From a bacterium (GTDB lineage: Bacteria; Cyanobacteriota; Vampirovibrionia; Gastranaerophilales; Gastranaerophilaceae), in assembly GCA_017542305.1 (NCBI GenBank), contig JAFXXK010000011.1, positions 1-64,000 of the forward strand: a stretch of DNA of 64,000 bases, in the 5' to 3' direction. The notes under the pieces were generated by a model. It made no database searches. It had not been told where the DNA came from and was given only the letters and a program-made list of their open reading frames with translations. A program made the position numbers and the translations under genes. Below are positions 25,128-31,837 of this stretch, piece after piece. Position 1 is the stretch's first letter. Every line of letters begins with the position of its first letter.

Positions 25128-28100
25128 GTGAAAGTAAATTTCAATAATAATTTGCATTTATCCACCCAACCTGCATTTAAAGGCTTTGAAGTTGCAAAAG
25201 ACGAATATGGCGAAAAATATTATGAATGGAGTTTTCCGTTTGATAAAAACAGATATGATTGCTATTTGGATGTATATCCCGTAACTCCTGATCATAACGG
25301 AAATTATGATAACAATAAATTTGATTCTCCTTATACCCACATTATCAACGGAACAAGTACAATAAAATTGGAAGCAGACAGGAAAAATAAAGTATATTTG
25401 GACTACATATACGGAAGACCTGAAAATGCACCTTTTGCGTATCACTACAGAATAGTACCAAAAGGAAGACCCAATGCAGTTCCGATAATTCAGTTTGATG
25501 CGGGTGATTTAATTGATAAACGTGATTTTAAAGAAGACTGGGCTAATGTATATAATATTGTAATCCCCGGAAGCATGAATTCAGGCAAAGCAGGGGCAGC
25601 AATACTTATTGGCGCTGATAACTACGATGTTCGTTATATTTATGACAAAAAAGGAAATATTATCGAAAATCCGAATGCCGAAAAAGGATTAAATATAAGC
25701 AAAAATTTTGCAAACCATGTCGGCGGTTCACTTGCCGGTGTTCATAAAGCATTGCAGGAAGGAAGACTTGATTTATTCTCAAAAGTATTCCTTCTTCCGC
25801 ATACCTCAGGTGACAGAACAAGTGCCGCAGGATATTGGCTTGAAAGCGGTTTTCAGTTTTCTTCGGCAGTAGATACTCCGGATACGTTTACAAAATTCCA
25901 AAATGAATTGTTTGCAAAAGGGAAAAACCTCGTTGCAGACTCCGCATTAACAAGTGAAGGCATGAGCGGTATTCATATTCAAAGTATCTTACAACACGGC
26001 GAAGATGACGTGTTCTTTGATTGGTTCAAATGCGGCTCTTTAAGAAACATGACTGCTAAAATCGGGGCTTTCGGTGTAAAAACAGAAACCATACGTCATA
26101 AATTAATTAATCCTCCGGAAATTGCCGAACAGGATACAAACGGACAAATAAGATTTATACCTAACAAAAAATACAAAAAAGATGAACCGACTTATATTCA
26201 GGTATACAGTGCAGACGCAGCAACCCCTGAACAAATCGCAAACTCTTCGGTAAAAATTGAAAGATACGGTAATCCGAATGGTTCTCATCCTCTAAAATAC
26301 GGTACTCATAATGATATCAGCATTGCATATAATTATCCTATTAACTTCCAAACGTACAAGGATGATGCCGATAAATTAAACGAACTGAACGCAATCAGAC
26401 GCAGAGAAGGCAAACCGTTTATTTCAAAAGATTCATACATGGGTACAAGATTATTAACCAAGTTTGAAAAATTTGAATTTGAAAACAAAATTGACGGCGG
26501 CTTCTATACATGGGATGCAAATGTTGATATTGCAAAATTTAACTATGCAGACTCTAACGAAGATATTGAAGAAGCAATGAATCTTCCGATTAGTGAAAGA
26601 GCTGCTTTCTTCGAAAAGAAAGAACAAAAAAGAAACGAAGTTCTTGATTATGCAGTATCATCATTAAAATATTGGACAAGAAAAACTAATCAGTCTTTAA
26701 ATTTATATGTTGCACAAAATCTGAAGAAATTAAATCCTGATAATGCAGATTATGCATATAAGAAAATGAATGAATTAATTGATGACGGCATATTACCGAA
26801 GAAAATAAACGACACTATAGACAAAGCTGTTGTAACAAATGTTATGACAGATGACTATTTATTACACGGTATGGATTCCGTAGAAAATTATCATAATATG
26901 ATTCTTGACGGATTAATGAATTATCCTCTTGAAGCAACCGAAGCCGGTAAAGATATTCTGGCATTGTTCTCTACTCCGTACATCACAAATCGTGCAACAA
27001 AACCTGAATACGTCGGCAAATCAAGACTTGAATTATTAAAACAACGTAATCCGCATTTAACTCCTCAATATGAAAAAGTTTATAATTTAACGACAAATAT
27101 GTATACAGGAGCAATGTATGATTTTGCTAATGAAGTTTTAGAAGAAGTTAATAAAAAACTCCCGAGAGATTCAAAATTAAACAGAGGTGCTGACACCTCC
27201 GATTACGGTAAATATGTATTACCTATTATCACTCAGGAAATCGCAAAATTTGCAGTTGTAAGAGCATTATTCCCTGACGTAAAATATGAAGTTAATTCTG
27301 AAAAAGGCGGGATTTCTTATGACTATGAAGCATTGAGAAATAAATCCTTAAAGAGTTTGGGTATTTACAATACTTCTCAGAAAAATGAAGCAGAAGAATT
27401 AATACTCAATTTACGTTCCGGTATCAGAAATATTTCCGACGACGATAAGAAAAAATTAGTAAAAGCCGTATATAAAATGATTGAGGATACAAACCTCAAG
27501 AGTTTCCAAATGGCTGAAATGATTGTTGACAGAACAAAATCCGGTATTGATTGGAGAATTGATGCGTTAAAAGACTTCTCTAATATGGATGGATTAAGAA
27601 ATAATGCAGATACATTTGAATCAAATTGGCAGCAGGTTACAAATATTTCAAAAGCATTGGTTGACGGCATTAAGAGCGAAAACCGCAACGCTTATGTTGT
27701 AGCAGAAGTTACCGATGAAGTCGATTTATATAAAATGGGCGACGGTGCTAATTCAGAACGATACACATGGCATAAAAAACCTTATAAAGTCGGCGAATAT
27801 ATAGACCATAACGGCGAAAAACAACCTATTTATAATTATGACTATAAAAACGATATTATAAAGAAATTACTCAGAGAATCAGGTATCGATGCAGTTGCAA
27901 ACTATGCCTTTTACTTCTCCGATATATCAGCAATCTTCGGTAAAAAAGGAGATGACGGTCTTGACTATGGCGAAAATCAGGATTACAGAATTCATAACGT
28001 ATTTTCTAAAGATAAATCAAATGAATATGCTCAGGAATTTTTATACTCAGGACCTTATGATTCAATAATTAAATCATATACCTTTGTTGATAATCACGAT

Positions 28101-29426
28101 AAACCAAGAATCAATCACGTTCTTTCTCTTGATATGGGTCTGTTTATGTCAAACCTGAACGATGATACCTTATCTAATGTTAACGAATACAGAAGACGTG
28201 CATTCAGAGTATTAAAACCCGACAGTCCAGAAGGCGAATATACAAACTATGATTACTCTTATGTCAGCTCAATGGCTGTAGCAAGAGGCGAAGCATTAAA
28301 TAAAGCTTTTGAACGCACATTGGAAAAACTCTCCAAAAAACAGGATAAACACGGTAACTACATTGTTACTTCCGGTGAAAAAGATGAGATGCTGCAGGAA
28401 TTTAAACGTGTTGTTGCAGAATTTGCTTCCGGTAAATATAAAAGAATAAATTATGAAGCGAATAATTTCGGGGTAGAAGAAGTTTATACTGTTCTCAAAC
28501 TTGTCATGGACGAATTTGCAGCAAAAACAAAAATAAGTCAAAACTTAAAAGAAACTCTGTTTAATACCGCATTTGAAGAATCTTTGGACAGAGCTATGGC
28601 TAACTCTTTAGGTATGGATAAATTCCTTATCAACGCCCCGGGTATTCCGACCATTTATGCAGGTGACGATTTAGGTACAACAGGATGGGAAAGAAAAACC
28701 AAAAACGAAACACAGAAAAATCGTCCGCCCGTTCATCATGATTGGGTTGACAAATTCCCGTTTATTAAAACACGCAAAGCTCAGAAAGATGATATTTATC
28801 TGTTCCGCTCAAGACCTGCATTACACGCATTGAATGACGGTGCTCCATTCTTACTTAAGAAACAAAAAATCAAAGAAAATAATGACAGATACCTTACAGG
28901 AGTATTAAGATACGCAAATGACGGAAATACTGTTATTTCATTATTTAATACTTCAGGTACAGCAAGAGATTACAATAATTACACTGACCCTATGGGACAC
29001 AGTGTCACAGTTCAGGGTAACAAAATCGATTTAAGTTATGAAGGTAACGAACATTATGTCGGACTTCATGCCGGTTTGACCGAAGGCATGAAATTTGTCA
29101 ACGCATATAATCCTGACGATATTTATGAAGTATTCAAAGGCGACGGAGATGAATATTATCTTGCTAAAGACAGATATTGCAAAGAAGAAATCAAATTAAC
29201 GGATAATACTCTGACTTTATACCATGCCGATGATGCTCTGATGAATAAAGAAAAAGCCTTTATGGAGCAGGTAGCAAAAGCAAGAAAGAGTGCTGAAAAA
29301 GGACATCCTATTTCATTCTGCGGCAGCAAGACATTTGTAAATCAAATTTATAATGTTGCACCTGCAAACTACAAAAAATCCGAAACAAAGACAACAGGCT
29401 CTAAACTTCAGCTCATAAGCAAATAA
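25128..29426 (+). CDS. GH13 (alpha-amylase superfamily)-like protein with PAFKG N-terminus
   Basis: A 1432-residue protein with a GTG start and AAGGAG upstream. After a short N-terminus containing QPAFKGF, a motif I associate with gut Melainabacteria, the GH13 signatures appear in order: a region I-like LVADSALTSEG (D271), region II GIDWRIDALKDF (nucleophile candidate D812), region III YVVAEVTD (acid/base candidate E860), region IV FVDNHDKPR (H990-D991), then PGIPTIYAGDDLG. The catalytic triad is present, but the region I histidine is missing. About 540 residues separate regions I and II, far more than usual. No classical signal peptide is seen. It is probably an alpha-glucan-active enzyme; the substrate is unknown. 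Confidence 0.8.
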   Translation: MKVNFNNNLHLSTQPAFKGFEVAKDEYGEKYYEWSFPFDKNRYDCYLDVYPVTPDHNGNYDNNKFDSPYTHIINGTSTIKLEADRKNKVYLDYIYGRPENAPFAYHYRIVPKGRPNAVPIIQFDAGDLIDKRDFKEDWANVYNIVIPGSMNSGKAGAAILIGADNYDVRYIYDKKGNIIENPNAEKGLNISKNFANHVGGSLAGVHKALQEGRLDLFSKVFLLPHTSGDRTSAAGYWLESGFQFSSAVDTPDTFTKFQNELFAKGKNLVADSALTSEGMSGIHIQSILQHGEDDVFFDWFKCGSLRNMTAKIGAFGVKTETIRHKLINPPEIAEQDTNGQIRFIPNKKYKKDEPTYIQVYSADAATPEQIANSSVKIERYGNPNGSHPLKYGTHNDISIAYNYPINFQTYKDDADKLNELNAIRRREGKPFISKDSYMGTRLLTKFEKFEFENKIDGGFYTWDANVDIAKFNYADSNEDIEEAMNLPISERAAFFEKKEQKRNEVLDYAVSSLKYWTRKTNQSLNLYVAQNLKKLNPDNADYAYKKMNELIDDGILPKKINDTIDKAVVTNVMTDDYLLHGMDSVENYHNMILDGLMNYPLEATEAGKDILALFSTPYITNRATKPEYVGKSRLELLKQRNPHLTPQYEKVYNLTTNMYTGAMYDFANEVLEEVNKKLPRDSKLNRGADTSDYGKYVLPIITQEIAKFAVVRALFPDVKYEVNSEKGGISYDYEALRNKSLKSLGIYNTSQKNEAEELILNLRSGIRNISDDDKKKLVKAVYKMIEDTNLKSFQMAEMIVDRTKSGIDWRIDALKDFSNMDGLRNNADTFESNWQQVTNISKALVDGIKSENRNAYVVAEVTDEVDLYKMGDGANSERYTWHKKPYKVGEYIDHNGEKQPIYNYDYKNDIIKKLLRESGIDAVANYAFYFSDISAIFGKKGDDGLDYGENQDYRIHNVFSKDKSNEYAQEFLYSGPYDSIIKSYTFVDNHDKPRINHVLSLDMGLFMSNLNDDTLSNVNEYRRRAFRVLKPDSPEGEYTNYDYSYVSSMAVARGEALNKAFERTLEKLSKKQDKHGNYIVTSGEKDEMLQEFKRVVAEFASGKYKRINYEANNFGVEEVYTVLKLVMDEFAAKTKISQNLKETLFNTAFEESLDRAMANSLGMDKFLINAPGIPTIYAGDDLGTTGWERKTKNETQKNRPPVHHDWVDKFPFIKTRKAQKDDIYLFRSRPALHALNDGAPFLLKKQKIKENNDRYLTGVLRYANDGNTVISLFNTSGTARDYNNYTDPMGHSVTVQGNKIDLSYEGNEHYVGLHAGLTEGMKFVNAYNPDDIYEVFKGDGDEYYLAKDRYCKEEIKLTDNTLTLYHADDALMNKEKAFMEQVAKARKSAEKGHPISFCGSKTFVNQIYNVAPANYKKSETKTTGSKLQLISK

Positions 29427-29780: not shown

Positions 29781-29812
29781 CTTATTTATACCTCGGTTAA
29801 TTTTATTATAGC

Positions 29813-29839
29813 ACAGACAAAATTTTAGACTTCAAATTT
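29813..29839. repeat. 27-bp direct repeat, left copy
   Basis: Identical over 27 bases to 31811-31837. It starts ACAGACAAAATTTTAGACTT and ends CAAATTT. This copy is in the panD upstream region, and the flanking bases differ from those of the other copy. Together the copies bracket the radical SAM gene. Confidence 0.9.
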
Positions 29840-29991: not shown

Positions 29992-31776
29992 ATGGAAAAT
30001 AAAAAGACACCAATTATATATTACGGAATAAAACCTTATATGGAAAAAAATTTAGAGGAATTTATTTCACGTACCGGAGAACCATCAGCTTTTGCAGTAC
30101 ATAATGACAGCATACGGAATTTTCATGCAAAAACATATCTTAATAAATATAATGTTTTAACTTCCGATGAGGCAATTGAGAAATATCCTGATGCTATTTT
30201 TTGGATAACATATGACAATAAAGTTGACGCATTAAATGCTGCTAATATACTATTAAAGAAAATATCACCTAATAAAATTAAGTTTATTCATTTTAATTTT
30301 GAATATCGTAAAGGTTGTTTTTTCTTAGGACATTTTCTTGATTATCGACTGAATGCAATTTCCCCTTGTTGTGTTGTAAGTAATACGTCTGTTGCAGTAA
30401 AGGGTTCAATCCCTGAGCAAATAAATCAATGGCAAAAGCATGTTACACAGCTTATAGATGATATAAAGAATGAAAGACCCAATATTTGCTCAAAATGTAA
30501 ACATCTTAAATACGGTTTTTATAACAATGATGTTAAATTAGATAACTTATGTTTCGGTTCAAATCATCCGGGAGATACGTGTAATTTAAAATGTGTTTAT
30601 TGCTTCGCAGAAGAAAGTTTTAAAACTTTGAAAAATACGAAACAAACAAACCTTAGCACTTATGAAATTTTACGTCAACTTTCTGAAATGCCTGAGTACA
30701 ATAACTCAAATTTCCAAGTAGATATTTCAAATGGTGAATTTTGTGTAAATAAAGATTTTGATAAAATATTTGATATACTGCTGAAAACTAAATGGAAGGT
30801 TAAATTTGTAAGCAATTTAACTGTATATAGAGAAAAATTCGCACAGTTTTTAAAAACAGGAAGAACCGTATATGTTTTATCCTCTTTGGACTGTGGAACA
30901 AGGGAAACCTTTTTGAAAATAAAACGGGCAGATTTGTTTGATAAAGTTGTTGAAAATCTTAAAAAATATCCATTTGAAAACGTTGATTTGCAACTAAAAT
31001 ATATTTTCCTTGAAGGATTAAATGATAATATTACAGATATTGATGGATTTTATAATATTGTAAAAGATGTAGGTTGTAAAAAAATTGTTTTATCAAGCAA
31101 CTTAAGTAAACCGTTTACAGAAAATATGAGAAATTTGGCAAGCAGACTTATTCAAAAAGCAAAAGCTGATGGAATTAAAGTTCTAAAAAGCAGTTATCTT
31201 GCACCTGCAGATGAAAAGTTTATAGATGAATGCATAAATCTATCCAATATATCTTTTAGCAACCAAACTCAATATTCAGCTACTATAGTTGAAGACGGGA
31301 AAAGTATTATCTCAAATCCTTCAAATACAGGTCAAATAGATGGAGCAGGCACATTATATTTAAACGCAAATTTAGCCCATGGCTCCAATGCTGAATGTAT
31401 AATTAAACTTGGAAAAAATTCTTCTATAATTGTAAATGGAAATGTACAGATTGAACCAAATACAATCATTGAGTTAAAAGATAATTCTATATTGACAATA
31501 GAATCAGGAATTATTGAAACAGGAACTATACTAAAGTGTAAGCATAATATACAAATGGGCAATAATGTTAAAATATCTCCAAATTGTTATATAACGGATT
31601 GTGATGAAGATGATAATGAAAAGACAACTAAATCTGTAAAATCCAAGCCATTAACTATTGCCGACAATGTAAAAATCGGTTATGGCACAGTCATCACAAA
31701 AGGAGTAAACATCAGTAAAAATATTGTTGTTAAACCATATTCGGTAGTTACAAAAAATATTTCAACAAAGAAATAA
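29992..31776 (+). CDS. Radical SAM protein fused to a left-handed beta-helix domain
   Basis: A 594-residue protein with three parts. Residues 1 to about 110 are Rossmann-like (IIYYGIKPYMEKNL), reminiscent of the N-terminal domain of NeuD/PglD-type proteins. Residues about 160-430 are a radical SAM core with C197-x3-C201-x2-C204 in CNLKCVYC, an upstream CSKCKH pair, and extra cysteines. Residues about 440-594 are a hexapeptide-repeat beta-helix ending ADNVKIGYGTVITKGV, as in acyltransferases. The place where such enzymes usually have the catalytic histidine reads ITDCDEDD (C537-D540), so transferase activity is doubtful. The segment is flanked by 27-bp direct repeats. The function is unknown; modification of a surface sugar or peptide is a guess. 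Confidence 0.8.
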   Translation: MENKKTPIIYYGIKPYMEKNLEEFISRTGEPSAFAVHNDSIRNFHAKTYLNKYNVLTSDEAIEKYPDAIFWITYDNKVDALNAANILLKKISPNKIKFIHFNFEYRKGCFFLGHFLDYRLNAISPCCVVSNTSVAVKGSIPEQINQWQKHVTQLIDDIKNERPNICSKCKHLKYGFYNNDVKLDNLCFGSNHPGDTCNLKCVYCFAEESFKTLKNTKQTNLSTYEILRQLSEMPEYNNSNFQVDISNGEFCVNKDFDKIFDILLKTKWKVKFVSNLTVYREKFAQFLKTGRTVYVLSSLDCGTRETFLKIKRADLFDKVVENLKKYPFENVDLQLKYIFLEGLNDNITDIDGFYNIVKDVGCKKIVLSSNLSKPFTENMRNLASRLIQKAKADGIKVLKSSYLAPADEKFIDECINLSNISFSNQTQYSATIVEDGKSIISNPSNTGQIDGAGTLYLNANLAHGSNAECIIKLGKNSSIIVNGNVQIEPNTIIELKDNSILTIESGIIETGTILKCKHNIQMGNNVKISPNCYITDCDEDDNEKTTKSVKSKPLTIADNVKIGYGTVITKGVNISKNIVVKPYSVVTKNISTKK

Positions 31777-31782
31777 CTACCA

Positions 31783-31824
31783 AAAATTTTGTCTTATATT
31801 CTATCATATTACAGACAAAATTTT
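31783..31824. terminator. Bidirectional terminator between the radical SAM and response regulator genes
   Basis: AAAATTTTGTCT (31783-31794) pairs with AGACAAAATTTT (31813-31824) over 12 bp with an 18-base loop. The right arm lies in the right copy of the 27-bp repeat and overlaps the last two bases of the response regulator stop codon. The left copy of the repeat lacks the partner arm. Confidence 0.65.
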
Positions 31825-31837
31825 AGACTTCAAATTT
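31811..31837. repeat. 27-bp direct repeat, right copy
   Basis: Second copy of the 29813-29839 repeat. It covers the last five codons, including the stop, of the response regulator gene (read on the minus strand) and the bases just beyond. The distance from copy to copy is 1998 bases. Confidence 0.9.

Follow-up and report, generated by a model that had tools for sequence, protein, structure and literature searches.

The window, i.e. the whole 64,000-nucleotide stretch of Gastranaerophilaceae DNA that was analysed, carries an uninterrupted open reading frame at 29992-31776 on the forward strand, with an ATG start and a product of 594 aa. Domains were assigned with Pfam, a family alignment and an AlphaFold2 model computed from 18 sequences of the family (all domain coordinates refer to the forward strand). 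The protein comprises a Rossmann-like N-terminal domain (residues 5-118, 30004-30345), an N-terminal twitch-like domain (residues 103-178, 30298-30525), a radical SAM core (residues 181-417, 30532-31242), a low-confidence linker (residues 418-446, 31243-31329, pLDDT <50) and a degenerate left-handed beta-helix (LbH) of the NeuO/WbbJ/MAT type (residues 447-594, 31330-31773). In the model, residues 8-98 form an alternating beta/alpha domain of high confidence (mean pLDDT about 90), and the radical SAM part is likewise confident; the beta-helix was predicted less confidently (55-75 for residues 447-588). The order Rossmann-like, radical SAM, beta-helix had been proposed in a first-pass annotation and was upheld by Pfam, AlphaFold2 and the family alignment, but that annotation had overlooked a fourth domain, the twitch-like one with its conserved cysteine set. 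Seventeen further family sequences were found, 16 of which span the Rossmann-twitch-radical SAM part, and so a chance reading is ruled out.

Here panD and a response-regulator gene are separated by a ~2.0-kb segment that holds this gene and no other. Of the ten further congener loci used for comparison, seven have an empty gap of ~50-65 bp at this place. Repeat comparison with the congeners placed a 40-nt direct repeat at the borders of the insert: the left copy lies at 29800-29839 and the right copy (90% identical, the last 27 nt perfect) at 31798-31837, where it overlaps the 3' end of the response-regulator gene. The repeat unit, which corresponds to the end of the intergenic stretch plus the final codons of the regulator gene, is single-copy in congeners, and the pair scored 28 against a maximum of 11 in shuffled controls. 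GC content was 28.6% in the insert gene versus 35.0% in the window, and third-position GC was 18% versus 26-32%. No recombinase was found within the insert, and no flanking direct repeats above shuffled controls were found at other family loci. Taken together, the direct repeat, the empty congener sites and the low GC content fit a recent gain of the window gene by transfer. The window also contains, at 25128-29426, a 1432-aa ORF with a GTG start and no Pfam match, in which stretches such as GIPTIYAGDDLG recall, by eye, GH13 glycoside hydrolases.

The radical SAM assignment was confirmed by a Pfam match (Radical_SAM PF04055, residues 193-345, E 1.1e-12, 48.8 bits versus the curated cut-off of 29.5) and by the alignment of the SAM-cluster motif C197-x3-C201-x2-C204, which reads CNLKCVYC (residues 197-204, 30580-30603) as first annotated; both the motif and the score are those of the superfamily. 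Among NCBIfam models, those for MoaA, mycofactocin and the N-terminal twitch matched the core weakly. The fold neighbours of the core include the sugar-acting enzymes DesII and BlsE (Z 12-13) as well as peptide and other radical SAM enzymes, with SkfB and SuiB among the top ones; SkfB, DesII and BlsE span Z 12-14, and MoaA reaches 11.6.

Ahead of the core, C109, C126, C127, C166 and C169 make up, with the three CX3CX2C cysteines, a set of eight that is kept in every row of the family alignment spanning them. Twitch domains carry cysteines before and after a hairpin, a helix and then a CxxC, and bind one auxiliary cluster (PMC6231123). The same succession was found here in the sequence and in the predicted topology (C109, beta-hairpin, C126/C127, helix 140-159, C166-x2-C169), and residues 103-178 are accordingly described as an N-terminal twitch-like domain on the basis of cysteine spacing and the model. 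The label does not extend to membership of the NCBIfam N_Twi_rSAM family (NF033640), because the score was far under its cut-off (34.6 bits, or 35.5 in a second search, versus 170). The window protein resembles NF033640 proteins in its cysteine-bearing domain ahead of the core and in a weak profile match at residues 193-417, and differs from them by the added Rossmann-like domain and C-terminal helix. It shares the cysteine order of the BtrN/SkfB/MoaA twitch types (PMC6231123), whereas its twitch is N-terminal and it has no close sequence relationship to these enzymes or to DesII/BlsE. Shorter relatives of ~330 aa with a similar cysteine set were also observed: two genomes from this bacterial family each hold 12-13 places that match. 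Loci L034, L005 and L006 (genomes G029 and G023) belong to a large expansion of such N-terminal-twitch-like radical SAM genes, three of which stand in tandem at L034. First-look counts gave up to 55 candidates of this kind in genomes of genus g70.

At the C-terminus, hexapeptide repeats were detected by Pfam (33 bits for the isolated domain and 26 bits for the full protein, cut-off 27). The window helix matched NCBIfam models of maltose, galactoside and WcaF O-acetyltransferases weakly, with NeuD far lower in the list, and the helices of its relatives scored best with WbbJ (2.8e-25), followed by NeuO (1e-19) and NeuD (1.6e-17). For the helix of relative L052, the best solved relative was the polysialic acid O-acetyltransferase NeuO (1e-19). 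By profile and alignment, the window helix is thus of the NeuO/WbbJ/maltose-type O-acetyltransferase class: the acetyltransferase-type beta-helix of the first-pass annotation stood, and its NeuD/PglD subfamily did not.

The crystallised members of the LbH group have in common a catalytic His on a loop that protrudes, joined in the acetyl-CoA-using enzymes by a Trp that the neighbouring subunit contributes; in NeuO, His147 and Trp171 are named as crucial (PMC3046976). The intact helices of the relatives align over 156 residues with NeuO, within a group that also holds OatWY, WbbJ and the maltose/galactoside acetyltransferases, and the loop His, the Trp of VW(I/V)G and the GNPA end all correspond; the catalytic His precedes VWIG in a loop, as in NeuO/MAT/GAT. 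The helix here differs from those enzymes in being fused behind a radical SAM enzyme, and the window copy lacks the His, the Trp and GNPA. Its loop reads ITDCDEDD (residues 534-541, 31591-31614): in the alignment with relatives the His column holds Asp540, followed by a deletion of two loop residues. The conserved acetyl-CoA-site Trp (PMC3046976) is replaced by Lys561 (31672-31674, VWIG to VKIG), and the chain stops short of GNPA. The missing histidine noticed earlier was therefore real and was accompanied by further losses. With His, Trp and GNPA missing and the loop shortened, His-dependent acetyl transfer by the window helix is very unlikely, and the helix looks catalytically dead as judged from its residues.

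One scan of ~85,000 species genomes yielded 15 loci of the radical SAM family, and a long relative was present in 17 of 383 genomes of the same bacterial family; no relative was found in viral contigs. The carriers are gut Gastranaerophilales or uncultured bacteria, with a single exception, a rumen Lachnospiraceae MAG contig that encodes a helix-less form. The three-part fusion first described was not uniform across the family, the helix being intact, His-less, reduced to a stub or absent depending on the row. An intact helix with His and Trp occurs in five rows (L041/P0002, L040, L043, L052 and L039). The His is lost from three helices, namely those of the window (Asp), L042 (Cys region) and L069 (Tyr), the last of which is encoded by a gene that is also broken into two frames. 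Four rows keep a conserved stub of the first helix rungs, and six have no helix. Four of these six have an extra N-terminal part of ~70 residues: this conserved, beta-rich domain (MAKIIKIEGNTVFIGTDDGKLLEV...) is found in L003, L044, L046 and L060, in the helix-less clade exclusively.

Because five relatives retain the catalytic His, its absence is a local loss and not a defining design. On the alignment, the loss of putative helix activity is local: some relatives in the same bacterial family keep both residues, and L042 and L069 lost the His separately. In a tree of the radical part, which is unrooted and in which the window branch is long, the window copy grouped with the stub and helix-less clades (support 99/99). 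Identities were 36-42% for the helix against 60-65% for the core, so the helix diverges faster, and the window helix is probably on its way to loss, as in the sister clades. The helix could instead have been repurposed, being retained in the window copy to hold a trimer together or to bind polymer, without catalysis. The frame is open through the helix, which retains about 45% identity to intact helices, and the stub clades retain conserved first rungs in four species; yet the faster divergence, the truncated C-terminal part with its low model confidence, and the sister clades that do without a helix make repurposing somewhat unlikely.

The genomic surroundings of some relatives point towards surface polymers. 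A PGA_cap (CapA, PF09587) gene lies directly upstream in four helix-active loci of one genus, and in L039/L058, two records of the same assembly, so that the fusion rests on one genome, a CapA domain is joined in frame in front of the enzyme (993-aa chain, 31% identity to the neighbour-type domain). CapA proteins are thus gene neighbours or fused domains of helix-active relatives. Of 383 genomes, 6 carry both a capA relative and the radical enzyme, versus 0.6 expected (P 7e-6, kinship ignored), and four of the six are one linked lineage. No capA relative was found in the window genome as far as the assembled data go (78% complete), and no conserved operon was found across the family beyond capA in one genus. 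The neighbours of L051 are genes for a DegT aminotransferase, a UDP-sugar dehydrogenase, a glycosyltransferase and a Mur ligase; in L053 a GH88 gene starts 3 bp after the radical SAM gene, and L146 lies near GT9 and GT1 genes. No obvious glycan neighbours were seen for the window gene, L042, L044, L049 or L050. The Mur ligase of L051 (7273-9486) is a fusion with a D-Ala-D-Ala carboxypeptidase-like (S11) domain, and its gene lies 21 bp downstream of the radical SAM gene. Separately, capA-type genes with an ORF of 440-470 aa behind them (in one case a murF match) are scattered in the same bacterial family (L137-L145), in some genera in genomes without the radical SAM gene, and the capA cassette of L137 is preceded by a glucuronyl C5-epimerase-like gene.

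We hold it most likely, at about even confidence, that the enzyme performs radical chemistry on a sugar that belongs to a cell-surface polymer or to its nucleotide- or lipid-linked precursor. The surface polymer would probably be a glycan, with acetylation as a second activity that can be dispensed with. A peptide or amide polymer is the chief alternative, because the CapA family includes the peptide epimerase MslH (PMC9266682). The enzyme would then act with CapA, as an epimerase-like metallophosphatase, and with MurF-like ligases to modify a peptide of the capsule or one linked to the cell wall; the helix would acetylate that polymer. Such a role is suggested by the adjacency and fusion of CapA, by the local match of the CapA homologue to the lasso-peptide epimerase model MslH (6e-19), by the Mur ligase-S11 gene directly downstream of L051, by the pairing of CapA relatives elsewhere with MurF-like ligases, and by the high rank of SkfB and SuiB in the fold comparison. 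It is nevertheless unlikely, as the NeuO/WbbJ/MAT helix class acts on saccharides and L051 also lies among deoxyamino-sugar genes.

The outer parts of the protein had been taken at first for the two halves of one NeuD/PglD-type sialic-acid or bacillosamine acetyltransferase, interrupted by a radical SAM enzyme. Folded alone, the N-terminal domain gave a five-strand Rossmann-like domain (pLDDT 85) without a Gly-rich first loop, and its invariant residues in the family are the YG, the G-P of TGEP and the W-T of WVTY (W(V/I)TY across the family), which probably line a ligand pocket. Pfam (including PF17836) and NCBIfam returned no match to the first 120 residues, the PglD_N profile did not match the N-terminus, and a sequence search of solved structures with this domain found nothing relevant. 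Profile-profile comparison with 14 NeuD N-domains gave a probability of 11%, and the NeuD/PglD model TIGR03570 scored 19.3 bits versus a cut-off of 160.8. The PglD_N profile is no PglD hallmark, since it also matches FkbM-type methyltransferases (a name given by eye from sequence). In fold comparisons, Foldseek ranked VioB first, but at E 0.08 and TM 0.51; VIA-align ranked 2g6t, an uncharacterised Clostridium acetobutylicum protein, first (Z 10.5, rmsd 3.5, 96 residues), above a tied group of succinyl-CoA synthetase, WeeI (Z 7.8, 2.7 A, 85 residues), Rex and others. 2g6t may be linked to DUF1919. As an assignment for the N-terminal domain DUF1919 was rejected: the match lies within the first 134 residues, and the single DUF1919 protein compared starts without a Rossmann part.

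The structure comparison thus bore out the Rossmann-like fold but not the PglD specificity. The N-terminal domain is best described as a generic Rossmann/CoA-binding fold whose class fits the earlier idea, with nothing specifically PglD about it. NeuD, PglD and VioB sugar N-acetyltransferases likewise join a Rossmann-like domain and an LbH in one chain, but the N-terminal domain here is not recognisably akin to theirs by profile, the helix, with its loop-type His, belongs to another subfamily, and a radical SAM core stands in between. A split NeuD/PglD-type enzyme, to which the VioB and WeeI matches might point, is accordingly not supported and very improbable. Least credible of all is that the window helix still transfers acetyl groups through another residue such as Asp540, which is acidic and stands at the His position, since His, Trp and GNPA are all gone and the loop is shorter.

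The 594-aa protein is best explained as a member of an undescribed radical SAM family with an N-terminal twitch-like domain. In line with the first-pass annotation, no characterised enzyme with the order Rossmann, radical SAM, beta-helix was found in the sources searched, and no relevant open-access paper was found on radical SAM enzymes in connection with CapA, Mur ligases, an LbH fusion, Melainabacteria or polysaccharides. The architecture is uncharacterised and best filed as a variant of radical SAM enzymes.

If the substrate is a surface-polymer sugar, the [4Fe-4S] cluster of the CX3CX2C motif would cleave SAM and the resulting 5'-deoxyadenosyl radical would take a hydrogen from a substrate carbon, in an epimerisation, dehydrogenation or deoxygenation of the sugar. 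The twitch cluster (C109, C126 or C127, C166, C169) may accept an electron, as in BtrN, or position the substrate, as in MoaA, and the Rossmann-like domain may hold the substrate head group in the pocket lined by the YG/TGEP/WVTY motifs. In the relatives, the intact beta-helix presumably acts as a trimeric acetyl-CoA O-acetyltransferase on that product; both catalytic residues are gone from the window copy, whose helix could at most trimerise the enzyme or bind the polymer. We tentatively propose, at somewhat short of even confidence, a single-chain family in which a radical change of a surface-polymer sugar is followed by O-acetylation on a trimeric beta-helix, with CapA joined in some species, and from which the window copy sheds the second activity and keeps the radical one.

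Surface polymers are a poorly charted field of radical SAM enzymology. The presence of a radical enzyme and an O-acetyltransferase in one chain, once together with CapA, names reaction partners and brings the substrate within reach of a test. Within one bacterial family the helix occurs in graded states (active, His-less, stub, absent), a clean example of how half of a putative bifunctional enzyme may be lost.
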